Assembly: GCA_021209225.1 (NCBI GenBank) | Contig: JAJOIW010000004.1 | Coordinates: 1 to 35,030 of the forward strand | Direction: 5' to 3' | DNA from: Verrucomicrobiota bacterium | GTDB lineage: Bacteria; Verrucomicrobiota; Verrucomicrobiia; Limisphaerales; JAJOIW01 | Length of the DNA stretch: 35,030 nucleotides | Shown: positions 5,120 through 34,463 of the stretch, in pieces | How the letters are laid out: every line of letters begins with the position of its first letter | Position numbering within the stretch: position 1 is the stretch's first letter | Made by a program: the position numbers and the translations under genes | Notes under the pieces: generated by a model | What the model was told of the DNA's origin: nothing | The model's database searches: none | What the model saw: the letters and a program-made list of their open reading frames with translations, nothing else

Positions 5120-7211
5120 ATGAAATCTGCAGTGAAAAAACTATTTATCTTATTGGTATTGCCCGCTCTGATTGGGCAATTGCAGTCGGCGACAAATAAT
5201 ACCGGGAATTCCCCGGCATTTATCATGATCGATTTATGCACAAATGGACTTGGCGACAGCGTCGGAAACTTTGATCAGCCTCGGATGGAGCCGGACGTGT
5301 TTGACATTGGTCTGGATATCGATGCGGACGGGACAATCGATCGATGGCTTTCACAAGAAAGCGCCACGTGGTTTGGTGGCGGTAACAGTGACGCCATCTT
5401 CCCGGATGCTTTCCGAAGAATTTATTTTTTCCAACTTGATGAATATGTCGGCCGTCAGGCTAAAATCCGCTTTGTAGATAAGAGTGAAATATACTACATG
5501 GCAATCAATGCGGTGCGGGTGTGCGGAGCCGATGGAGTAATCGTCGGGAATGCAATAAAAAACGGTTTTTTTGAGGCCGAAAACGGCTTGGATGGATGGA
5601 ACGTGATTGAATCATCCTTGGATGATGTGAACAAGTTGATTGTCAGCAATGGGACTCCGGGAAGCGATGAGGAATATGTCAACTACAGCGGCAGGCTCCT
5701 GTCCACCATGACTGATCCTCTATCTTTGGATTTCACTGAACAGGCAGTCGTCGAATCAGATGCTTTCACCATTCCTCAAGTAACCAGTTTCATCTTTGGA
5801 AATATGTCCGGTGGAGTCTCTGAATTTGTGAATATTCCTGAGGCCCTCTTTTCTGACAATCAAAGTGGTGTTTACATCGATCTTGGAACAATGGATTCTG
5901 ACCCGGACGGTGCGTTTGATCCCGCCAATGACATTGCCCTGCGGGGCCAGTGGGGTGGTGCTCCAGGAGCTGGTCGCAATGATTTTTTTTTCCGTATTCA
6001 TCAATACCTCCGGACTCGAGGGCAGACGCGCTCAGGTCGTGGCTTTTGATCACTCGGATAATTACCATGTTGCGCTCGATGCCATACGCATGAACTGGGA
6101 TTGGCAGGAGTCCATTATTAAAAACGGTGGATTTGACCAGGGAGTGCCGACTCCAGAGAGCCATCCTGACGCCACACTCTGGTTTCAGGAAAATGGATCT
6201 GAACTCCCCTATACAGAGCATCCAAGTGGATCCATTCCAGGTTGGAAAGTCCTCATGAGGGAGGACGCCACTGGGAATGCATTTTTCTTTGATTCAAATG
6301 CCCGACGCGATCACATGACTGGCCGCACATTTGTCGGAACAGGTGGAGGCAATCTCGCATACACAGGTGTTGAGATTCGATCTGATGTCTTTACCATCCA
6401 GCCAATCCCAAATGCTTCAGAAAGCGTTTTTGTCCAGTTTGCCTCAGCCCAGGGCACCGATCGTGAAAGATATTCAGATGACGGATCGGAACGGGCGTTT
6501 GGAAGGATCCAGTTGATTGTCGACGTGAATGGCAATGGCAGTTTTGATGACGCGGAAGACTTCCACTACGTCCAGCGGAATCAGTCGATGGCACCCAATT
6601 ACTCCAACAGCGGCCGCGACCTTTGGCACCATCCGGAATACCGGTTTTACATTCAGCCAGAACATCAATCAAAAATGGCCATTTTCCGGGCAGAAGACAA
6701 TTTCGGCCCATTCAAGGCAAGCTGGGGATGGCTGTGTATTGATGACTTATTTGTCTGGGATGGGAAATCAGCTGAGCTTGCCTTTCCTAACAGCGATTTT
6801 GAGCTGGGAAGTTTGGAGAATTGGGTCCCGGTGATCCAAGGTGGAGCCGGTTTCAATTCCTGGTTATCCGGGTCCCGCGAGTCCGTTGAGGCAGGCACAG
6901 CAACACATAGTGTCATGAACAATCGCAGTGTCGATATCGACGGGAAATTTGCAGCAGACACAGCCGCCAGAGAAACAGGCGGTGGGGATGGCGGGATCGG
7001 AAGCCTCACCTCAATTCCCTTTCAACTGCCATCCCTGACCACTGGGGGAATTCAGTCAATAGCTATTGTCTCCGAAAAAGTTGTCATTGAATTCTCTGGG
7101 ACACTCAAAGCCGCAGATTCGATTGTCGGTCCATTCTCCCCAGTCCCCGGGGCATCATCGCCTTATGAAGTCACCCCGGATTCATCACAGAAGTTTTATT
7201 CGGCAGAATAA
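5120..7211 (+). CDS. Secreted repeat protein of unknown function, with an apparent one-base insertion
   Basis: Hypothetical exported protein, about 696 residues once the frame is repaired. The ATG at 5120 follows GGAGGAAGG at good spacing and starts a signal peptide (MKSAVKKLFILLVLPALIG). The body holds about three repeats, each with an acidic loop (DIDADGTIDRW, DSDPDGAFDPANDIA, DVNGNGSFDDAED) and an NGxFExG...W element (NGFFEAENGLDGW, NGGFDQG, NSDFELGSLENW). These resemble carbohydrate-binding beta-sandwich repeats. At a run of nine T (5983-5991) the first frame ends at 6049. The continuation (FFSVFINTSGLEGRRAQVV) is in another frame, open to 7211, and parallels the earlier copy FFQLDEYVGRQAKIRF. 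Eight T would join them. The last 55 residues form the module shared with the 30193-34463 protein. A strong terminator follows. Confidence 0.8.
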
Positions 7212-10904: not shown

Positions 10905-13090
10905 TTACGGGAGGGTGAAGGCATAAAGTTTATTGCCGGATCGGGTGCCAGGCTTGCCTCCGCCACCTGCGGCGATGGCGATCCACTGTTTTCCATTGCA
11001 TGAATATGTCGCCGGGGTAGCGTAGGCACCGGCGTCCAGTTGGAATTCCCAGAGATGTTCCCCTGAATCTTTATCGAATGCCCGAAAGCGTTCATCCATA
11101 GTGGCTCCGATGAAAACCAATCCACCGGCAGTCACAATGGGCCCACCAATATTGAATGTGCCAGTTGGTTGAAATCCCCTTCTTTCCAATTCCGGATATG
11201 TGCCCAATGCGACCTGCCATAGCATGGTCCCCTGGTTTAAGTTCAGAGCTGTGAGTGTTCCCCAGGGACGCGGGTTGACTGGGTAGCCATCCGGGTCGCG
11301 GAAATCGTGATGGCCAGTCGCTTGATATGGGATCTCGTCCTTCCATTGAGCATCCAATTCTCCTGGCTGGAGATGGACATTTTTTCCTGAAGCAAAAATG
11401 AAATCGGTGATGGCCTTTCTTTCCACATCCAGCAGATAACCAAATCCAGGCATGGCACCACGGCCGGCTGTCAATATGGATTCCACTTCCGGCCGCGACA
11501 TGCGATGAGCGACTGATTCGAGGCTTGCGGGGGGTTTTTCTGGAAATTGGGCGGCGGCTATTGGATTGCCGTGGCAATTCGAACACATGGATTGAACTAT
11601 CTGGGATCCCAACTGGAAGCTGGTGATGGACTCAACTGGTTGGGATGGTCGCATACTGATCCATTCCGCCTCATTACTGGCGTTCACATACAGGATGCCG
11701 GTTTCAGGGTCACTGCCGGACCGCCCCATTCCGCTCCCCCATTAAATTGCGGTAACACGACTGAAGGCACAATTCCCGGGGGAAGAAAAACTCCTCCAGT
11801 CCGCATAGTCCCGAGTCTTTCCCGAATCCATTGTGCAGACTCGGGTGAGAGTTCCGCTACTTTGGCCGCTGTGAATTCCTGCTGGGCAAATGCTGGTGGC
11901 GCTTTGGGAAATGGTTGAGTGGGCCAGGATTTCTCACCTGGAATATCTGATTGGGGCACGGGTCTTTCCTCCACCTCAAAGACGGGTTGCCCATTGTCTC
12001 TTCTGAGCACAAATGTGTGGCCCATTTTTGTCACCTGAGCGAGGGCTTCTATATCTTTTCCATCAATCTTCAGGTCAACCAACACCGGCGGGCAGGGTAA
12101 GTCATAATCCCACAAATCATGGTGCACAGTCTGAAAATGCCATTGGTAGGCGCCACTTTGAGCATCCAATGCCACCACACAGTTCGCAAATAAATTGGCT
12201 CCAATCCGATTTCCTCCAAAATGATCGTACGAGGCGGAACCGGTTCCGAAATAGACCCGTCCAGATCGGGCATCCAAACTGAATCCGCCCCAGGCATTTG
12301 CGCCGCCAGCAGATTTCCATGCGTCGGGAGGCCATGTTTCGTAGCCTGGTTCGCCAGGATGAGGAATGGTGTGAAAGATCCATTTTCTCTCACCAGTGTG
12401 CACATCGAAAGCCCGAACATGTCCAGGAGCGGACCGCCCAGGTCCCTCACCCACCCGGGAGCCGAGAATGAACAGATCATTATAAATGACACCTGGCGTA
12501 TTGCAGGTGACCAGTTCAGTCACCCAATCACGGTCCAGACCTTTTCGCAGGTCAATCCGGCCATTCACCCCAAAGCTTTCGATCATTGCACCAGATTCCG
12601 GATCCAAAGCGAAGAGGTAAATTCCGGAGACCATGAACAGGCGCTTCACATTGCCATCCTTATCCCACCACAATGTCACACCCCGATTGACACCCCGACT
12701 TCCACCATGACGGACCGGATCCCAGGACCAGATTTCTTTTCCAGTGTCTGCCTCCAGGCAAACGAGTTCCATGATTGGAGAGGTAATGTAGAGGAAGTTC
12801 TTAAATATCACTGGATTACATTGAATGGTGGTGCCCGAACCACCGCCCCGAAATTCATATATCCATCCGGGCCTTAAATTCTTCACATTATGGCGATTGA
12901 TCTCCTCCAATGTGGAATAATGGGTCGACTGTCTGTCCCCATTGTAGACACTCCAGCTGGTTTTTGAGAAATGTTCCCCGTCATCGGAAATTCCAACATG
13001 AACGAAGTGTAAATGACTTATGGCCAGCAGGATGCAGATAATTTGCATAGTCAGCCGGCATATTTTTCTGCGGAATCCTGAAATAAGCAT
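10905..13090 (-). CDS. PQQ-dependent dehydrogenase with an inserted cytochrome c domain, with an apparent one-base deletion
   Basis: Periplasmic quinoprotein that oxidises an alcohol or sugar with pyrroloquinoline quinone and passes electrons to an internal heme c. About 728 residues after repair. A signal peptide (MLISGFRRK..., hydrophobic IICILLAISHL) precedes the family N-terminus WSVYNGDRQSTHYS and propeller blades with ALDxxSGxxxW-type repeats (CLEADTGKEIWSWDP, AFDVHTGERKW, ALDAQSGAYQWHFQ). The heme motif CSNCH is at about residue 502, inside the propeller. The last blades then follow (NQGTMLWQVALGTYPEL, FDKDSGEHLWEF). As sequenced, the frame breaks near 11712. GGAEWGGPAV continues as DPETGILYVNASNEAEW only if one base is added. 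The frame also opens at a TTG (13126), and ATG 13048 is another possible start. Confidence 0.88.
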
Positions 13091-13288
13091 GGCACCAAGG
13101 TTGATGTGTAAAGTGCTGGAAATCAACTCTATATAACCAGGAATTCAACAATCCCGGCATATCGGCTTTTCTATCCGGGAGAGTGTTATCCGGTATCGAA
13201 TCTGAATATATGCTAAACATTCATTCCAGCATGTTCGATCTATTGACTCTAAGGACTGCAAGAAAGCCAGCAGCGCAGTGTGGCCAGA

Positions 13289-16200
13289 ATGAAGAAAATT
13301 TTTACTAAAAATATGGAAATAATGAGTCAGCGGATTCGAAGTAAACAGATGCCAGTGCTCTTTGCATTGTCCATCCTGACGATGGTATGCAAGGTGGATG
13401 CACAGATACAACGTCCGGAGAATCTGGCCATTTCCTCCTTGAATATGCAACTGAATGGCTGGGCTGGAGGAAGTAATCCATCCTTGGTGAATACTGAATC
13501 AGCCGTCATTTCCGCTGGGGTCACTCCTGGGACAGTATCAGGGAGTCTGGGGTCGATAATCGATGGAAACCCGAATGAAGGATCTGTTGGTTACCACGTC
13601 GACTCAAACAGTGATGCCTCAGTGAAACTGGTTTTTAAAGCGCAGCAGAAGGTTCGTTATGTGGCCATTTCGCCTTCTGCCTCACATTGGTCCGATGGAA
13701 GCCGGATGCTGGATGCTAAAGTCACCATTCGCGACAGCAATGGAGCTGTGACGTATGATTCCGTCGCCAAAGCGCCGACGGTGCAGTTTATACCAGGGAA
13801 ATTGAACACATCTTCGGGCACTGTTCTTCCTGCCTGGTATATTTATGATCTGCGCGGAACATACAATACTTCTGAGATTGAAGTTGCAGATGCGGACCTG
13901 TCCATCCAGGAAATTGAAGCCTTTAAGAATGAGGGAGGCAGATTATCCCCCCTTCAGGCACTTGAGTTACCCGGCTGGAATGGGGGGCTCTTCAGCGGAT
14001 TGCTGAATGCAACCACGGCTACGATATCGAATCAATCTCAGGATACATCGAAAAACAGCGAACTTTCCAAAATCATCAATGGGACGCCCGATGTGACTGG
14101 TGGTTTCCAGACGACGTCAGCCGGCAAACTCGTTGCCCAGTTGAATTCGTCTGTATCAGCGCAGTATGTAACTATTTCACCCACCGCAACCAAATGGGGC
14201 GGGGTGAACAGTTTGTTGGAACACGCATTCACCATCAAAAATCAGGCAGGCGCTGTGGTATTTGATTCCCGATCGTCATTGTATTCCCGGTACTATGTTC
14301 GGGGTAAAGTATCCACAAAACCCTCTTACCTCATCCTGGATCTAGGGGTGCCTGTTGAAACAGCTTCGATTGAAATCCAGGCACCAGCACTCGACATCCA
14401 GGAACTGGATGTCTTCAGTACTTTCCCCGACCTGGCTCCATTCTCCCGCCCGGGCATAGCCTATTATGAATTTCCTTACCAGACTGGAAATCAGTGGCCT
14501 GCATTGACGGGGGCGATTTCTATCAACCGGGGCGTCTCGTCCACATTTAATCCAGATGTCCACATAGGGCAACCCAACTTTCTGCTGCGCTTTGAAACCC
14601 GACTGTGGCTGCCCGAACCGGACACGTATAGTTTCACCTTGAACCCCGCCACGAGAACCCGACTGATCCTCGACGGGAATAACATAAGCATTTCAGCTTC
14701 AAATGGGAACACATCCGGGATTCCGCTGACAGCTGGAATGCATACCATTGTCATCGACTATAAATCAGATAACCCATCCGATGTGTTGCAGATATTATGC
14801 TCACGGAATGGATCCTCTCCAGTTCAGCTCGACTCCAAAAATATCTTCCTGCCAGATGGCTTTGAGGCCCTGAATATCGACACCACAAAGTTACCACTGA
14901 AAGTGGGAATTGTTTATTCACCTGCAACCGAGCTGGCATATGGGGACCCATTCTTCATGCGACAGGTCTACGCTGCCTGCCAGCTTCAGAGTGTCATGGC
15001 AGGATTTCCATTTGACCTTGTGAAGCCGGAGGAACTTTTAAATTACAATGCGTTAACAAACAGATTTGGTGCCCTCATTATCCCATCCCTGGACGGATTC
15101 AGTGCACAGGATGCGGGAATCATATCCACAAACCTTCAGAAGTTGATGAATATCAATGGGGTGGGTATTGTCGCATCATCCGAATTGTTCTCCTACGATG
15201 CGGCGGGAAATTTCATGGAAAATCTGTCGACCCCACAAATGAATACAATCTTCAGGATCGAACCACAAACATGGGGCAATGGAGTTCAGGCCAGCATTTC
15301 AATTCCCGAAACCACCGATGGATCATCTGTTCATCCATTGCTCAAACACTATACGGACCGGGGCAAACTGGTCGATTTTCCCGCACTTTATTTTGCTGAA
15401 TTTGTTCCAGTCGAAGGCGCATCAGTGGATGTCATCGCCACCATTGAAGCCAATGGCCGGAGTTATAACGGTGTCCTCGCCGGGACCCGCGGAAATGGGA
15501 AATTCGTCCATTTTTCAAATCTGGAAATATTAATGGATACCCGGATGGCATGGGCTGCACTGCGTTGGGTTTTCTCGCAGGATGCGAATGGAGCTCCATT
15601 CTATATGTCCCCTACCCGATCAGAGGGGATTTTCCTGGCCCGGAATGATATGGACCTTTCACGATTCTTTTTTGCATTGAGCCAGACCGAATTCCCACTT
15701 CTGGAGTTTCTTAAGGATTGGAAAGCAAAATATAATTTTGTCGGTTCCTATTATATCAATAATGGCAACAACCCAACGACTGGTGAGTTTACAGATTGGA
15801 GTGTTTCAAAGCCCCTTTATGACCAGTATATTGCTCTCGGCAATGAGATTGGAACTCACAGCTACACCCATCCTCAAAGAACATCAGATCTGGATGCCAA
15901 CAGTCTCCGGTTTGAATTCGAGCAATCGAAAATAGAAATTGAAGCTGGACTCGGCAATACCGTGCTGGGGACAGCGATCCCTGGGGAAGACGAAAACCTG
16001 TTTGTGGTGGATGAGCTGAAAAAATATCTGGATTATATCTCCGGTCACGGATTCTATTCATCCTCAAACCGCCATTTCAATCCGAGTATCGGGTTTCTCA
16101 CGCCCGATGACAGTCTGCTTTATTATTCACTGAATATGACTCCCGATTATGTTCTGGGGGATGTGATGAAACTGACACCTGAGCAAAGTATACAATTCTG

Positions 16201-18856
16201 GAAGGATGAAATGGCTTCCGCAGCGCTGGGAATGCCCAAGGGTGTCATCCAGTTCCTCTGGCATGATTATGCTGTGACGACCGCTCTTGCCAGTGGGAAT
16301 TACTCTGTCGCTATGATTGAAGAAACCCTCAAAAACGCCTACCAGAAAGGGTATGAATTTGTTTCACTGCAGGACTTCATGAATCGATATCGTGCGGCCC
16401 GCAGCAATTCCCTGAATTATTTCTGGAATGATACAGATACCCTGACAGTCCAGGTTACAGGCGGAGGCCTTGGACAATATGCTATGGAATTCGCCAATAA
16501 CTTATCCATTGGCTCAGTCAAAGATTGGTTCGCATATAATAATAACACGATCTTTGTTCCAGAAAATGGCGGCATCTTTGAGGTCAATTTCTCATCTGAA
16601 CCACAGAGTCTGACCCGCATCAGCAGCCTCCCGATGCGAATGAAACTCCGCTCGACATCCGGCGATGGCTCGAATCTCACATTCGATGTCTACGGCGAAG
16701 GCAAAGTGGAAATCAGCCTCAATACATCAAATAACAAAAAATACCAGGTCATGGGAGTTCGCGATTTTGAATATGTGCATTCAGACCTGATCAGTATTGA
16801 TCTGCCAACGATTGGTGAATACCGCATCCAGATACTCGAAACCGATAATATCCTCCCAATTACTCAGAATGTATCCATTGCCGGGGATTGGAATATGTCA
16901 CACGATTTCGAGGTTTCCACAATTGATTTTGATGGCACTGTCGAAAGTGTTCAGATAACCCATGCCCCACTCAATGGAACAGTGAACTTTAATGGATTTG
17001 TTGGAACATTCACCCCAAATTCCGGGTTTTCCGGTGCCGACTCATTTGAGTTCATCGTCATTGACAACCTGGGGGCACAAAGCTTACCTGCCACTGGAGC
17101 GGTTAATATATCGCAAACCAATTCCTCAGACGGACTGGCAAATTACAACTTTCTCAACCGGGAATTCATATTGAATGGCCAGTTTGATGAATGGGAAGGA
17201 TTGGAAAGTGCCTTGGTCGATGCGGCGGATGCAACCCAGCCACTGGATCAGTTGGACTATAGAGAAATCGCTCTGGCTCACGATGACACCCACTTTTATA
17301 TTCGATATAGCAGTGAGAAAGCGGCTGCTTTGAATTGGGCTCACAATATTTATATCGATACTGACGCGAATCCAGGTACTGGCTACCAGTATTGGTATGT
17401 TGGAGGCGATATTCTGATCCAGGCAGGCAAAGCCTATAAATACCTCGGAACTGGCGCTGACTGGAATTGGCAATCCATGACAGATTCACAGATTGCCACT
17501 GATCCAGCCATGAAGCAGTTTGAACTGTCTCTCAACCGATCCGCCATAGCCGGTTCGCAATATATAAAACTTGTATTCCTTGCTGACAACTTTGCCTACC
17601 CGGGGGGCAGCACCTTTGATTTTGCTCCGGATGGATTCACCACGACAGGGGCCACTCTCGACTACTATTTTATCAACCCGAACAGTAATTTCGCTCCAGT
17701 GGCGACACCTGACTCTGCCGTCCTTCTCAAAAATACGTCGCGTCAGTTCACACTGGATGGAGTGGACCGTGAGTCGTCGAATCTGACTTACCAGATTTCG
17801 GCTCAACCACTGCATGGAACCCTGGATGGCCTGCCTCCCAACGTCACATACACTCCGTCACCTGATTATCTGGGAGTGGATACATTCACATTCCGGGTAT
17901 CGGATGGGGATCTGGTATCGCAGGCAGCCACGATCACAATTCGAGTCATAGATCTGCCGCCTGGTAATGTATTCTCCAATAACGGAAGTACTGTCTTCCT
18001 GGACGGAAACCTGGATGACTGGAGTAACCTGGTCCCACTTCCGAGTGATTCTCCGGAAATCCTTGAGCAAGCGGCCGGAATTGACTGGAAGACTGCTTAC
18101 CTGGCGAATGATGATTCCAGCCTGTTTGTTGCCATTCAGAGTGGAAAACCCATCAGTCTGAATTGGGGTTATATGGTGTTTATTGACACAGATTTGACTG
18201 CATCGACCGGGTTCCAATTGTCCGCGGTTCCAGGATTGGGATCTGAGTATATGGTTCAGGGAAGCGCGTTGTTCAGGTATACAGGAACTGGATTGGACTG
18301 GGCCTGGCAATTTGTGAACTTTAACGATCGGGGCACCAAAGACCACGTGTTTGAGTTCAGGATCGCCTTGTCTGATATGGGGATACTCAATCTCCCAGTC
18401 CAGGTTAAGATGGTGTTCTACGGCGATAACTCTGCTTTCAGTGGGGGGACGACCTTGGATCTCTATCCTGATGCCGGGTCCTCCTTCTCACCCGGATGGA
18501 CCTATGAGATACGGACTCCATCACTCCAGCAGAACATTGCGGATCAACCAGTCCGGATTGCACCTGCTTACAACCACACCTTAAGGATATATGAACGGAC
18601 ACCAATGGCGCTCACCAGTTCTGGAGTTCCTGATGATGATACCTTGTTATTCAAGTTGCGCTTCGAGGCAAACCCCAGATCCACCTGGAACCTTGAAAAA
18701 TCGTTGAATCTCAATGACTGGTTGCCCATCAATCGTTGGACCGTTTATGGAGCGGAGTCCAATATCATCCTCTCACCAGAGCATTTCCAATCCTCAAAAG
18801 GGGCATTTTTCCTGCGTGGAAAGCAATCCCCGCCGATTGGATCCACAAATAACTGA
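13289..18856 (+). CDS. Giant secreted multi-domain protein with a polysaccharide-deacetylase-like core
   Basis: 1855 residues. The signal peptide ends near KVDAQ. The domains, by similarity, run as follows: two tandem discoidin-like beta-sandwiches (about 45-210 and 215-378, each with YVxISPxAxxW); a PA14-like segment (about 390-520); an amidotransferase-like alpha/beta domain (about 538-780); a NodB-type deacetylase-like domain (about 780-1050); cadherin-like (about 1195-1280); CBM9-like (about 1282-1468); a second cadherin-like; a second CBM9-like (about 1560-1745); and a C-terminal tail. The deacetylase shows ARNDMD for the catalytic Asp region, HSYTH (His857, His861) as the metal motif, and a later LWHD. 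The layout recalls CE18 enzymes such as fungal Agd3, so N-deacetylation of an amino-sugar polysaccharide is inferred. A GTG at 13280 and an ATG at 13322 are alternative starts. A strong terminator follows. Confidence 0.85.
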   Translation: MKKIFTKNMEIMSQRIRSKQMPVLFALSILTMVCKVDAQIQRPENLAISSLNMQLNGWAGGSNPSLVNTESAVISAGVTPGTVSGSLGSIIDGNPNEGSVGYHVDSNSDASVKLVFKAQQKVRYVAISPSASHWSDGSRMLDAKVTIRDSNGAVTYDSVAKAPTVQFIPGKLNTSSGTVLPAWYIYDLRGTYNTSEIEVADADLSIQEIEAFKNEGGRLSPLQALELPGWNGGLFSGLLNATTATISNQSQDTSKNSELSKIINGTPDVTGGFQTTSAGKLVAQLNSSVSAQYVTISPTATKWGGVNSLLEHAFTIKNQAGAVVFDSRSSLYSRYYVRGKVSTKPSYLILDLGVPVETASIEIQAPALDIQELDVFSTFPDLAPFSRPGIAYYEFPYQTGNQWPALTGAISINRGVSSTFNPDVHIGQPNFLLRFETRLWLPEPDTYSFTLNPATRTRLILDGNNISISASNGNTSGIPLTAGMHTIVIDYKSDNPSDVLQILCSRNGSSPVQLDSKNIFLPDGFEALNIDTTKLPLKVGIVYSPATELAYGDPFFMRQVYAACQLQSVMAGFPFDLVKPEELLNYNALTNRFGALIIPSLDGFSAQDAGIISTNLQKLMNINGVGIVASSELFSYDAAGNFMENLSTPQMNTIFRIEPQTWGNGVQASISIPETTDGSSVHPLLKHYTDRGKLVDFPALYFAEFVPVEGASVDVIATIEANGRSYNGVLAGTRGNGKFVHFSNLEILMDTRMAWAALRWVFSQDANGAPFYMSPTRSEGIFLARNDMDLSRFFFALSQTEFPLLEFLKDWKAKYNFVGSYYINNGNNPTTGEFTDWSVSKPLYDQYIALGNEIGTHSYTHPQRTSDLDANSLRFEFEQSKIEIEAGLGNTVLGTAIPGEDENLFVVDELKKYLDYISGHGFYSSSNRHFNPSIGFLTPDDSLLYYSLNMTPDYVLGDVMKLTPEQSIQFWKDEMASAALGMPKGVIQFLWHDYAVTTALASGNYSVAMIEETLKNAYQKGYEFVSLQDFMNRYRAARSNSLNYFWNDTDTLTVQVTGGGLGQYAMEFANNLSIGSVKDWFAYNNNTIFVPENGGIFEVNFSSEPQSLTRISSLPMRMKLRSTSGDGSNLTFDVYGEGKVEISLNTSNNKKYQVMGVRDFEYVHSDLISIDLPTIGEYRIQILETDNILPITQNVSIAGDWNMSHDFEVSTIDFDGTVESVQITHAPLNGTVNFNGFVGTFTPNSGFSGADSFEFIVIDNLGAQSLPATGAVNISQTNSSDGLANYNFLNREFILNGQFDEWEGLESALVDAADATQPLDQLDYREIALAHDDTHFYIRYSSEKAAALNWAHNIYIDTDANPGTGYQYWYVGGDILIQAGKAYKYLGTGADWNWQSMTDSQIATDPAMKQFELSLNRSAIAGSQYIKLVFLADNFAYPGGSTFDFAPDGFTTTGATLDYYFINPNSNFAPVATPDSAVLLKNTSRQFTLDGVDRESSNLTYQISAQPLHGTLDGLPPNVTYTPSPDYLGVDTFTFRVSDGDLVSQAATITIRVIDLPPGNVFSNNGSTVFLDGNLDDWSNLVPLPSDSPEILEQAAGIDWKTAYLANDDSSLFVAIQSGKPISLNWGYMVFIDTDLTASTGFQLSAVPGLGSEYMVQGSALFRYTGTGLDWAWQFVNFNDRGTKDHVFEFRIALSDMGILNLPVQVKMVFYGDNSAFSGGTTLDLYPDAGSSFSPGWTYEIRTPSLQQNIADQPVRIAPAYNHTLRIYERTPMALTSSGVPDDDTLLFKLRFEANPRSTWNLEKSLNLNDWLPINRWTVYGAESNIILSPEHFQSSKGAFFLRGKQSPPIGSTNN

Positions 18857-18889: not shown

Positions 18890-18914
18890 AGGCCGGCTTT
18901 TGCCGGCCTTTTTT
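18890..18914 (+). terminator. Rho-independent terminator of the giant deacetylase gene
   Basis: AGGCCGGC-TTTT-GCCGGCCT hairpin followed by a run of six T (TTTTTTA), 34 bp after the stop codon. Confidence 0.93.
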
Positions 18915-19020: not shown

Positions 19021-20209
19021 TCAGAGCGCCTGGAGGTAGAGGGATTCGAAATCAGCAACGGAAATGTCCCTGGGGTTGAAGTTTCGTGTCCATTGATTGT
19101 GGGCTTCAGCAGCGAGTGTGGGTATTGAGGAGGGGCTGATATGATGTTGGGTGAGTCTGGTGGGGATGTGCGCGATGTGAAGCAAATCGCTCAATGTTTC
19201 GACCAATATATCGACGGAACGGTCTGGATCATCGTTGCGTCCCTTGAGTGCGGCGATATTGACGAGTTCGGCGTAGATTGTTCTGGCTTCATCGAGTTGG
19301 CTGTTGAAGCGAACCACGTGCGGGAGCATGATGCCTACGGCTATTCCATGGATCATATTGAAGTGGGCTGTCAAGGGGTTTGCTGTGGAATGGGCGGCAC
19401 CCAGCATACTGTTTTCGATGGCCATTCCGGCGTAGGCCGCCCCAAGAAGCATCTGACCCCGGGCCTGCACATTGCCGGGATCGTGCAGAACGTCCCGCAA
19501 ACTGGTGACAGCGATCTGAAAGGCCCGTTGAGCATACATCAGTGAAAAGGGATTGCGTTTTTTACAAACAGCCGATTCCACAGCTGTGCGCAATCGCGTC
19601 AATCCCGGTGTGTGCCGTCACTGAGAGCGGCAGGGACAAAGTCAGTTCCGGGTCCAAAAGGGCCACCCTGGGTGCGGCTTTAAAATCCCCGCAGGCCATT
19701 TTCATGTGGGTTGTGGCATCGGATATCAGAGCAAAGGATTGGCATTCACTTCCGGTCCCAGCGGTGGTGGGGATCGCGACCATGGGAAGCATCGGCGATT
19801 TTGCTTTGCCAAACCCCCAATAATCTTTCATCTCACCTCCATTGGTGATGAGGAAATTGGCGCCTTTGGCGGTATCAAGTGCACTTCCGCCCCCGATTCC
19901 CACAATGAGGTTGGCGTTGTGTTCCCTGGCGATATTGCGGCAAAGCTCCACACAATCGGTGGTTGGGTTTTCGACCACATCGTTGAAGATGATGGTTTCA
20001 ATACCTCTCGATTCCAGAATGCTGGTGGCCCGGTCGGGGTGGCCGGTTCGCATGAGTCCGGGATCGGTCACCACGATGGCACGGGTGGCTCCCAATTCTG
20101 ATGCAATCTGGCCAAGGTCCTTTAATTTCCCATTTCCGAAAACGATTCGGGTTCGGGCCTGGTAGTCAAAGGATGAAGTATCGACGATTGATGGGTCGTA
20201 TTTGTCCAT
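19021..20209 (-). CDS. Iron-containing (type III) alcohol dehydrogenase, with an apparent one-base insertion
   Basis: NAD(P)-dependent cytoplasmic enzyme interconverting an alcohol and an aldehyde. 395 residues after repair, the normal family length. Visible motifs are GGGSALDTAKG for the nucleotide-binding region, IPTTAGTGSE, and TGIDAIAHS...VESAVCKK. Downstream the metal-binding histidines lie in GAAHSTANPLTAHFNMIHG. As sequenced, the frame breaks at CACAGCTGTG (about 19581-19588). Removing one base gives the expected IAHxVESAV join and reunites the frame ending at 19602 with the one starting upstream. The frame opens at 20239, but that start lies inside a terminator hairpin, so ATG 20209 (MDKYDPS) is chosen. 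The adjacent aldehyde dehydrogenase upstream suggests an alcohol-aldehyde-acid route. The substrate is unknown. Confidence 0.9.
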
Positions 20210-20211
20210 GG

Positions 20212-20237
20212 AAAAAGCGGCCGGATGGACCGGCCGC
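20212..20237 (-). terminator. Rho-independent terminator between the aldehyde and alcohol dehydrogenase genes
   Basis: On the minus strand GCGGCCGG-TCCAT-CCGGCCGC is followed by TTTTT. It lies right after the aldehyde dehydrogenase stop and ends 3 bp before the chosen Fe-ADH start. It would stop or reduce read-through into the Fe-ADH gene. Confidence 0.85.
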
Positions 20238-20258
20238 ATGTGGGTTAGGGTGTGTGAT

Positions 20259-30192: not shown

Positions 30193-33100
30193 TTATGGCA
30201 CCACCCGGAAGAACTTGGCTCCAGTGGCTACAGCCTCAGAGTATGGGCTGGAAGCACCGGTAACATCAGTCCATGGGCCGTTGATGGTCGGGGCGGACTG
30301 GAGTTTTCCGGTGTATGTGATGGAGATATTTCCACCACTGAGCGCGACGCTGGAGATGACAGCATCCACTGGGTTCACAACTTCAATCAGGGAGATTGGT
30401 GAAGCAGTCGTGTAAGCATTGAATGCAGCATCGTCGTTCGGGTCGTTGATGAGGTGACGAACTCCAGATCTGTCCATCGTCCACCATTCGACGTTTGCTC
30501 CGCCCCCACCTTCAAACCACAACAAGCGGAATGGGTAGATACCAGGCTGAGGAACGATGAAACGGAAGAGTGTATCCGAAGCACCACGCCCTGCGTCGAA
30601 GAGACCGAGTCTCATGTCGTCAGCGCTGATGGCTGGGTTTTGTCCGTGGGTCACAAGGAATCCATCGTCTGAGTTCACTGCCATGGTGACAGGTCCAGCG
30701 GCTGGGAATTCAATGTAGGTGATCACTTCCCAGGTGATGGAATCAGTGCTGGTGGTGGACATCAAACCGGCTTCAACCATGCCCAGGTCATTACCGAATC
30801 GACCAGCGGCCGATCCATCCCCGTCCTGGTTGTGGTTGATGTAATCGACGACAACATCATCGACTTCGAAATCAATGACACCGAAGTTGCCGGCGATCTG
30901 TTGTTCAGCGAGGGCGATGGTGGTTCCACGGTTGGCACCAGCGGAATCCAAGCCCTGGCGTGCGGAGAGAAGCATCCCTGGGTCACCGGCTCCCGTGAGA
31001 GGTGCGGCATACATCAGCGATGGAATGTTTTCGGTCTGGAATGTCCAGGACTGAGTTTCCTGAGCGCCTCCGGTTGTAGAGTAGCTGACTGAGACGGAGA
31101 CGGATCGGTTGAGTCCGTAATTTTCCGAGCCACCGGCGAAAGACACATTTGTGGTGTCCCCGGTTTTGACCACAGTCGCAGTAACGGTCTGGCCATTGAC
31201 TTTGAGCACAACAGATGCAGGATCGACAGCATCAGAAATACTGTCGCGGAGATCGAAGCTGATACCTGTGCTGTCTATCTGAACTCCAGTGGCTCCATTG
31301 GCTGGAGATGCTGCCAGGATGGTGATTCCATCGTAAGCAGGCTGATAGCCCCAGAGGAATTCAGCAGGAATCGGGAGAGATCCGTTAGCCAGTGCCTCTG
31401 GAGATCCATCGGCAGAGAAGCTCCAGGCAACGGCCGTGTTGTCACCGCCGCCACCTTCGGAAACAATCGCTTCCACGTAGTAGATCTGATCCGCCTGCAG
31501 GCCAATCGGTTCGGACTGGTTTCCAGCCTGGTCGAATTCGCGGATTGCGTTCCAGTTAGGTTCATTGGCGATCATGATGGAGTTCTCTGGGGAATCATCG
31601 CTTGAGAGCCAGAGTTCGGCATTGTCATCGTTGGCGATACCGAAGATATAATCACCGGTTTGAGATGGTTTGATGAAACCGAAGATGACCTGAGCATATC
31701 CTTCAATCACATCTCCAGGAGGAGCGACGTTGATATCTCCAGTGGCTGGGGATTCAAAATAGGTGGTTGAAGTACTGCGGCGGGCGCGGATATCGCTGAT
31801 GTTTGCTCCGGTTCCGTAAGCAGCAAAGCCTCCCGGATATATGCCTTTTCCGCGATCTGCAGCAGGGTAGAATGCAAGATCACCTGGGGCGTGGTTGTAG
31901 AAGAGAACAGACAAACCACCCTGGCGCAACTGATAGGAGACGAAACTTCCACCACCAGTGACAGGATTGGCGGCATCAGCCATGTCAGTCACGCCACTGA
32001 CGGCCACAGTGTACTTGGTGGCGTCAGCCTGAACGGCAGTCGTGATCAGAACACCATTCGCTCCGTTCATGGCAACAGACTCAATAGCGAGTGCGCCACC
32101 AGGACCTGTGATCGTGTAGTTGGCGGCATTGGTTGCGGAAGCCTGGTTGACATTTTCGCTGAAAGTGATGAATACATACTTTTGAGCGGCGGAGCCAGAA
32201 ACGAGGTAATTGTTGGGGGCGACGGTGTCAGGAGCGACCGAAACCTGAACAGTGCTGGATGTTGCTTCACTGAACCAGTTGGAGGCAACCACATAATATC
32301 CGCCTGCGTTGGATGGGTGAGCGGCAAAGCTGTAGGAGCGTGAGGTGGCTCCATCGATCATGATGGGCTCGCCACCACCGGCGGGAACGCGGTACCACTG
32401 GTATCCGCCACCATTTGGGTATCCCCCAACGACAACAGACATAGTGACGATCTCGTGCTCATTTGCAGAGGCGCCGACGGGCTCTGTGGCAATATTAATG
32501 TCACCGACATCTGGGCCGAGGTAGTTGATGCTGACATCGTCAAACCAGTGGGACTGCCAGGCACCGCCAGTGCGTCCACCGAATCCTGCCTGAGCATTGA
32601 GAACACCTTCCCATTCCACGTCCACACGATCCATGATGGTGACACCGTCGTAGATCACGGTGGCAAATCCGTCGATGCTGAGATCGACGGAAACCGGGAA
32701 CCAGTCCTGACCGCGGTGAATCGAAGGAATACCTGCGGCGTTCGTGGTTGGAGCACCACCAACGGTGACTTCAGGAGTGGCCACGAATGCACGGGACTGG
32801 TTCTGGTATTTGATTTCAATACCGACACCAAGGTCGGAACCACCGGAAGACCAGTTGTCGAAGGAGACAACCAATCCAGCAGGGGCATTGGCTTCCCCGC
32901 CGGCATAACCCTCTTCAGACTGAGGATATGTGCCTGTTGGCATATCATCGGCCACGTTGAAGGAGAAACCGTCCGCCGGGCGGCCAGATGTGTCACCGAT
33001 GCGGGCCTGGAATTCGAAAGTCACCTGCTGGATGTCGCGGCGCTCAGTCAGGAGAGCAGCACCGAGTTGATCTCCAACACCGTCGGTGATCTTGAGGTAA

Positions 33101-34463
33101 CCGGAATTCCCTACACCACCGGTGTCGCGAACTTCAGCGGATCCATAGATTTCCAGTTCATCCGCGTTCAACCCACTGTTGAAATCGTAAATGACAGGAA
33201 TGCCCCCTTCGAAGAGGAGGTTTCTTGTGGTGTCTTCGATGGTGTTTGGAGTTGCTGCCAAATCATCAATGCCAGAAACGTCCACGGTGATGGTGTCACC
33301 GCGCTGGAAATCGAAGTTGGCGAGAATGATGACATCGGTACCATCCCCTTTGAGCTGTGGGTGATCGGTCAGGATCTGGGCACCTGCAGGAAGGGCGGCA
33401 CCATCGACGCGGTAGTTGGCTGGGTTAGTCGCCTGAGTCAGGTTGATTTTCTCACTGAATGGGACAATCAGGGCATTCGGGTTTCCACGATGGTCGATAA
33501 AACCAACAGCTGGAACATCGGTGTCTGGTTCGACTGTCAATTCAAATTCCTCGGTGAGGGTACCATTGACAGAAGCACGGTATTTGTTGCCGTCGTTGGC
33601 CATAATTGCTTCGACGGAGATGAGTGGTGAGACGGCGCCGGGGATGTCAGTCCACCCACCGGTACCTGTGTTGATCTGCCACTGAATGGTGGCTTCCCCA
33701 TTGAAATCGAATTCAACAATGAAATCCGTGGTGCCGCGTTCGGGAACCAAGCGCTCGAGTTGAGTGAATTCATTCGGATAGGTAATCAGGCTTTCAACTT
33801 CAGAGACACCATTGATGCCCATGGCGAATGAGGAGACATCCCGTTGCACGTATGCGGCTGGAAGCACAGCCGCTGGACTGCCATCAAGTGACCATCCAAC
33901 CTGGACGAAATCTCCACCGCCGCCCTCTTTCATGAGGACTTCGAAGTAATATCCCTGACCCGCTACGAGGTCAATTGGAGCAGAGGCATTCGCGGTGAGT
34001 GCGTTACAGCACCCAGCTTCCTGGACGATCATACTGGCGTTGCCACGGGTATGATCTGTGCTGAGCCAGATCTGGGAAGCATCATGGATCGGACGTAGAA
34101 AACATAAGATCCGGTTGCGGGAGGATAGAGGACGCCAGTCAGGGCAAAGCCATAATCGTTGAGTCCAGTGTCACCAGTGCCAAAAGGCTGGGGGTATTCG
34201 ATAAATCCAGTGGAGGTTTCGATCACACCGGAGATTCCATTTTCACCAGCCACGGCGGTGACTTTTTCCACGAGTTCCGGAGAATTCGGATACTGCGGGT
34301 CGTCCAGAAGGTTGGCTACGGCAGTTCCACCAATGGCGGCGCCGCCCAATCCTGCACTCCCGTAGATACGCATATCCACGGCAGCTTGAGAAGCGAGTGG
34401 GGCCACAGCGATCATCACGCTGAAACACCACGTCAAGGTTGTAGTCAGTTTATTCTTGTTCAT
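30193..34463 (-). CDS. Giant secreted PA14/lectin-like multi-domain protein, with an apparent one-base deletion
   Basis: About 1423 residues after repair. A signal peptide (MNKNKLTTTLTWCFSVMIAVAPLASQA) leads to a first PA14-like domain. Then come an Ig-like segment (AVGFIDHRGN...), a legume-lectin/concanavalin-like domain (DGFSFNVADDMPTG; SGYLKITDGVGDQLGAALL), another Ig-like segment, two further PA14-like units (each with GGGGDNTAVAW- or GGGGANVEWW-type cores), and the C-terminal module GKLQSAPTINGPWTDVTGASSPY. PA14 and lectin domains suggest binding of sugars at the surface. The first PA14 is split: the frame breaks at about 34086, where VFYVRS should continue DDASQIWLSTDHTRGN and needs one added base. 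The protein is rich in Gly, Ala and Asp, consistent with a secreted product. A terminator follows. Confidence 0.82.

Follow-up and report, generated by a model that had tools for sequence, protein, structure and literature searches.

Gene and module architecture at the locus

The window analyzed in this study is a stretch of 35,030 nucleotides from a contig of a Verrucomicrobiota bacterium. Inspection of the reading frames revealed a single open frame on the forward strand at positions 13289–18856, which represents a real ORF of 1855 amino acids, as the first-pass annotation had described. The whole gene encodes a secreted, multi-module putative deacetylase whose core is kept in three lineages. 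In agreement with the earlier proposal of secretion, inspection of the N-terminus identified a hydrophobic segment with an AxA-like cleavage site (VDA/Q) at residue 38, giving a putative signal peptide of residues 1–38 (13289–13402). The true start of the protein may be a downstream ATG.

Both flanks of the gene are occupied by metabolic genes of unrelated function (ThuA-like, PQQ dehydrogenase, Fe-ADH, aldehyde dehydrogenase, GSDH-type, UDG and LysR). No pel genes were found among these neighbours and no polysaccharide-utilisation genes adjoin the gene. A terminator-like hairpin with a T-tract is present 34 nucleotides past the stop codon (18890–18909, forward strand); this consensus match is G+C-rich, consists of eight pairs (seven of them G-C) followed by TTTTT, and was called strong. 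With these unrelated neighbours the gene looks monocistronic. Three neighbouring genes, namely the PQQ dehydrogenase (10905–13126, reverse strand), the Fe-ADH (19021–20239, reverse strand) and one further, unassigned gene (5120–7211, forward strand), are each divided into two overlapping ORFs, which suggests frameshifts arising either from indel errors in the metagenome-assembled genome (MAG) or from gene decay. A second giant secreted-looking protein of 1279 amino acids, with PA14, Big_5 and lectin-like domains, is encoded at 30193–34032 on the reverse strand.

All modules of the 1855-residue protein are described here by their positions on the forward strand. The N-terminal part consists of two discoidin (F5/8 type C)-like domains in tandem (13415–13933 and 13952–14434). 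Comparison of the two domains with one another showed homology (31% identity, E=6e-21), consistent with their earlier description, and F5/8 type C matches remained below cut-off (PF00754/PF22633 for the first domain; E=1.4e-5 for the region covering both domains, 0.007 and 0.0098 for the single domains). The PA14-like unit that had been proposed was recovered at 14435–14878, but its match to PF07691 is weak (E=0.0056, below cut-off). These domains are followed by the core (residues ~534–1190), which is composed of a ThuA/GATase1-like alpha/beta domain (14888–15595), a NodB-like carbohydrate esterase domain (15596–16444) and a beta-rich domain (16445–16858) that is conserved in an alignment of 11 family members (A4). 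The first of these had been called amidotransferase-like, and relatives back this assignment: two of the 11 family members match the ThuA Pfam model (best E=8.7e-4).

The part following the core contains two solid cadherin-like/Big_9 repeats (E=2.4e-15). The first (16871–17140) shows two PF17963 stretches, with the tandem-95 model matching best at residues 1212–1280, and the second (17687–17941) matches PF17963 at residues 1467–1551. Two further modules (17162–17671 and 17990–18499) share a D-T-D...TG signature and form a true repeat family (alignment A7), named here the DTD-TG modules. The earlier label of a cadherin/CBM9-like array thus stands for its cadherin component and for the reality of the repeats, and the CBM9 name was rejected, as no CBM9 model in Pfam and no PDB entry supports it. 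A C-terminal beta-rich tail (18506–18853) had no match in Pfam; it aligns with a paralog (L013) and with a protein of 3042 amino acids (L014), and is common to other giant proteins of this genome. No glycoside hydrolase (GH) domain was matched in the protein by Pfam. The module layout proposed in the first-pass annotation is therefore broadly right, and its CE18 and CBM9 names are without profile support.

Signature motifs and structure models of the core

Comparison of 20 homologs from three lineages revealed that the RNDMD, HxxxH and WHD motifs are invariant (20 of 20). The ARNDMD (residues 784–789) and HSYTH (residues 857–861) motifs noted earlier are both present. In R785-N-D787-M-D789 (15641–15655), D787 is the predicted base, D789 a predicted metal ligand and R785 the predicted base-activating residue. 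The invariant histidines of H857-SYT-H861 (15857–15871) form the predicted metal-binding HxxxH motif. In W991-H992-D993-Y994 (16259–16270), H992 is the predicted catalytic acid. The 11-sequence alignment A4 also contains an invariant PG and an invariant aspartic acid, D953 in this protein (16145–16147), a candidate MT4 acid located 39 residues before H992. D789 and H857 are 68 residues apart (67 residues between them). No invariant arginine occurs between H861 and H992 in either the 6- or the 11-sequence alignment. The D/H/H metal triad residues of the NodB superfamily are present in the protein as judged by motif. The motifs speak for the NodB-like core that had been proposed, and eight of the 11 members match Polysacc_deac_1, but the matches are weak and below the curated cut-off (best E=1.2e-4; 0.0017–0.0063 for the window protein, the higher value for its full length).

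With regard to the (beta/alpha)7 fold of the NodB superfamily, AlphaFold2 models built with five sequences were poor, with a pLDDT of 47 for the 653-residue core and 38 for the esterase domain only. A Foldseek search with the low-confidence core model placed PelA (9cgy) at the top of 350,542 chains (E=8.5e-5), and the matches listed for the same model included the ThuA-like 4jqs (probability 0.85). The search with the esterase-only model gave no significant match. PDB profile searches using the single sequence and profiles of 2 to 11 sequences returned weak CE4 matches only.

Relatives, pel clusters and the fate of PelA

The core is common to 20 proteins from three lineages (the window's genome, Granulosicoccaceae and Rhodobacterales), with 28–42% identity over about 640 residues and about 30% identity between branches. 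Such conservation indicates that the gene is more than a chance occurrence. In the core tree, the window protein and its paralog L013 are sisters and the Rhodobacterales sequences form one clade. The paralog begins directly at the ThuA-like domain and shows 39% identity over residues 536–1831.

The core is rare. Searches of 240 further genomes from the phylum did not recover it, nor, apart from two sub-1e-4 fragments, did those of 57 relatives; among 320 genomes of the order it was present in the window's own genome and in none of the 319 others. Searches with the single window protein in genome contigs and with alignment A1 in viral contigs identified no related loci. A profile of the window protein and its paralog identified four Granulosicoccaceae loci, and 12 of 48 genomes of that order carry the core. 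One Granulosicoccaceae genome (G560) contains two copies (L048 and L059, on contigs C5 and C164). The position of many Granulosicoccaceae copies is conserved: they neighbour recQ/DUF1800-type and TerC/protein-kinase-like genes and are not close to pel. A spread of 399 Pseudomonadota genomes contained the core in the query genome only (1 of 399), a rarity at which a co-occurrence test is uninformative. A protein search of plasmids added seven Rhodobacterales records (E about 1e-71 to 1e-76, 93–99% of the core covered). No report of this family was found in open-licence papers.

Analysis of the Rhodobacterales loci revealed a link to Pel biosynthesis. In Sulfitobacter and Cereibacter, the homolog heads a cluster of galE, GH114 (endo-alpha-1,4-polygalactosaminidase; unnamed in one cluster record), a polysaccharide export protein, pelF and pelG. 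The Paracoccus homolog has galE in its vicinity, and its plasmid also carries pelF. These homologs carry three to four DTD-TG modules N-terminally and RTX repeats C-terminally; the latter point to export into the medium. The same clusters contain a PelA-like protein without a GH domain. Alignment with intact PelAs showed that in this protein HIDGD is changed to VVRPE or TVAPE and HTFSH to AGHSL or QGFSD, and that the histidine of YYH is gone. The Cereibacter and Paracoccus proteins lack HxDxD, HxxxH and the catalytic histidine, and only a C-terminal remnant is present in Sulfitobacter. These catalytically decayed PelA-like proteins (reverse strand; L026, 22959–25253; L022, 22933–25170; L104, 22941–25100) have lost all predicted deacetylase residues.

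Comparison of 22 pelF plasmids, covering plasmid records only, showed that the catalytic residues of PelA are lost or undetectable in all seven with the homolog, and that the PelA site (HxDGD and HTxxH) is intact in all 15 without it, the last PelA motif of one of these lying outside the readable frame. Azospirillum clusters, the nearest alphaproteobacterial comparison, contain GH114 and an intact PelA without a GH domain, and no homolog. All seven homolog-positive plasmids come from one order and may therefore reflect a single replacement event. Judged by these active-site sequences, the family appears to have taken the place of the PelA deacetylase in certain marine and photosynthetic bacteria, the Rhodobacterales.

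A different arrangement was observed in the other two lineages. No pel cluster surrounds the window gene, the paralog or the Granulosicoccaceae homologs. The window's genome, a 58% complete MAG, contains an intact PelA (9cgy, E=4.3e-98) with HIDGD, HTFSH and YFH present. This pelA-like gene forms a pel cluster on another contig (C218; L040, 7785–15747) together with two TPR export-type genes and a GAF (PelD-like) gene that reaches to 0.4 kb from the contig end, in the order of the Azospirillum pelA-B-...-D genes. Two solo GH114 genes are present in this genome as well. PelF was not found in it, possibly because the assembly is incomplete and the contig is broken off. PelA is itself rare in the window's order (15 of 313 genomes). 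In the Granulosicoccaceae order, PelF occurs in 11 of 12 core-positive genomes versus 23 of 36 core-negative genomes (one-sided p=0.065), a weak co-occurrence that is suggestive only. PelA is intact, where it could be read, in both the window's genome and Granulosicoccaceae, so that an enzyme of the window type would be an additional extracellular deacetylase there; in the window's genome it fills no vacancy.

Relation to known deacetylase families and probable function

The known Pel/GAG deacetylases belong to CE18, CE21 and CE26. The first-pass annotation described the protein as CE18-like, CE18 being the family of Agd3 from Aspergillus fumigatus. Agd3 (CE18 with CBM87) consists of an alpha/beta domain, the esterase and a beta domain; it has adjacent aspartic acids (D377-D378) in CM1, H510 more than 120 residues further on and, in CM3, the essential R613, although CM3 is absent from some bacterial homologs (PMC7229062). 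The window protein does resemble Agd3 in being secreted, in its HxxxH motif and in the order of its three core parts, a layout also found in PelA and PelADA, so the likeness of layout noted earlier was borne out; the expected substrate, a GalNAc polymer, is likewise shared. Membership of CE18 is nevertheless very improbable and was rejected. The first motif is D787-M-D789 rather than an adjacent pair, the CM1-CM2 gap is 67 residues against more than 120, and neither the CM3 arginine nor CBM87 was found in the family. Agd3_CE (PF25115) gave no match to the gene even at E<=10, none among the 11 members and none in the window's genome, Sulfitobacter, Paracoccus or a further genome (G562); in G560 a single sub-cutoff match lies away from the core homolog. 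The HMM check against CE18 and CBM87 that had been suggested returned no Agd3 or CBM87 Pfam model for the 11 members, the domain at the corresponding position resembling ThuA, and no Agd3 chain appeared in the PDB profile searches or among the 50 Foldseek matches listed.

By motif, the closest active-site layout is that of PelA (CE21), not Agd3. PelA of Pseudomonas uses H526-x-D528-x-D530, H600/H604, E723 and H761 and has no CM3 arginine (PMC12022489, PDB 9cgy). The window family shares the D-x-D register, the basic residue two positions before the base, the MT4 acid and the missing CM3 arginine. The spacing is also similar (70 residues to HxxxH in PelA, 68 here; E723-H761 38, D953-H992 39), an alpha/beta domain precedes and a beta domain follows the esterase in both, and the Rhodobacterales relatives have a pel gene context. 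The register, the MT4 acid, the missing arginine and the top rank of PelA in the search with the low-confidence core model would fit a divergent PelA deacetylase domain that lost its hydrolase and gained surface modules. Such an origin is nonetheless quite improbable: the family profile gives 399 bits or more for members and no more than 7.8 bits for PelA esterase sequences, hhalign aligned the two esterase domains around HxxxH only (E=0.0011; controls 0.14–0.44) and gave 0.23 for the alpha/beta domains, and a recognisable PelA coexists with the window protein in one genome. CE21 membership was accordingly rejected at the sequence level. The family further differs from PelA in having R785 in place of H526, in lacking a hydrolase domain, in its large arrays of surface modules and in its predicted extracellular location (RTX, lipoprotein-like or Sec signals).

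Two further families were compared. PelADA of Bacillus cereus (CE26 with CBM114) has adjacent D262-D263 and a CM3-like R458 (PMC13254593). It shares with the window family a stand-alone form, a pel linkage, an alpha/beta domain and the deacetylation of Pel outside the cell that is predicted here; however, it is a compact three-domain protein whereas most homologs here have 900–1860 amino acids with other modules, and, in a comparison by motif, the adjacent aspartic acids and Arg458 are absent here. CE4/NodB enzymes (e.g. PDB 7ax7) align in the HxxxH region (PDB match with A4, E=3.8e-4) but differ in that the window family has D-x-D as its first motif, lacks the MT3 arginine and scores below the Pfam cut-off. 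Taken together, the PelA-type layout and the failed CE18 and CE21 profile tests suggest a protein that would work like a PelA-type NodB deacetylase while belonging to neither family; it probably represents a new carbohydrate esterase family.

Our preferred interpretation, which we regard as reasonably probable, is that the product of this gene is a NodB-superfamily enzyme, secreted and metal-dependent, that removes N-acetyl groups from a polysaccharide; its most probable substrate is a Pel-type polymer that is exported and has a high content of alpha-1,4-GalNAc. It would belong to an unnamed family outside CE4, CE18 and CE21 that has apparently replaced the PelA deacetylase of Rhodobacterales and would serve as an extra enzyme elsewhere. 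The role in bacterial amino-sugar exopolysaccharide modification suggested in the earlier annotation is supported by the presence of homologs in Rhodobacterales pel clusters and by the way in which loss of the PelA catalytic site tracks the homolog. In the proposed mechanism, D789, H857 and H861 would bind a divalent metal, D787 would activate water with the help of R785 at the position of PelA H526, and H992 would serve as the acid that donates a proton to the leaving amine. Attachment to the polymer or to the cell surface may be the task of the discoidin-like, PA14-like, cadherin-like and DTD-TG modules, and the enzyme would act outside the cell on the exported GalNAc-rich polymer. The motifs, the architecture, the gene neighbourhoods and the decay of the PelA site are direct observations; the enzyme activity, the substrate, the envelope location and the functions of the accessory modules are what we infer.

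The main rival is a catabolic role, in which the protein is secreted to deacetylate foreign amino-sugar polysaccharides (Pel or GAG of other microbes, chitin, glycosaminoglycans) that hydrolases then degrade for food. The position of the paralog between genes for a ROK sugar kinase, an SIS isomerase and an SGSH-type sulfatase, the two solo GH114 genes located apart from PelA in the window's genome and the many surface-binding modules, which would fit a degradative enzyme, all point in this direction. This role is rather unlikely, since the Rhodobacterales homologs sit in pel biosynthesis clusters and track PelA decay, and the window gene has no polysaccharide-utilisation genes beside it. The substrate may also be a different N- or O-acetylated polymer, such as PNAG or an acetylated plant or algal sugar, with the pel link limited to the Rhodobacterales branch. 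NodB enzymes switch substrates frequently, the branches are only about 30% identical, and the window and Granulosicoccaceae loci are not linked to pel. We consider another polymer less likely still, as the active-site motifs are the same in all branches and PelF or PelA is present in 11 of 12 carriers of the Granulosicoccaceae order and in the window's genome.

Galactosamine polymers of the Pel type occur widely as sugars of the biofilm matrix, and their partial deacetylation confers charge and stickiness. If the preferred interpretation of a Pel-directed deacetylase is true, a further unrelated-looking family replaces the PelA site in Rhodobacterales and deacetylation can shift from the periplasm to the cell exterior. 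Replacement would also account for the "dead" PelA in Rhodobacterales pel clusters, and since both Cereibacter and Sulfitobacter can be grown in culture, the idea is open to direct testing. Proteins at present labelled hypothetical could be annotated by means of the motifs. There is about an even chance that proteins with the order RNDMD ... HxxT/SHP ... PG ... WHDY constitute an undescribed carbohydrate esterase family of post-export Pel de-N-acetylases, with the Rhodobacterales PelA left as a dead scaffold, and that the DTD-TG modules are a putative carbohydrate-binding family placed C-terminally in some lineages and N-terminally in Rhodobacterales. Several DTD-TG modules also occur in the 3042-residue protein of the window's genome mentioned above (L014; contig C37, 6479–15607), along with a kelch/galactose-oxidase-like head and discoidin, legume lectin, PA14, PKD and cytochrome c peroxidase/cytochrome c domains.
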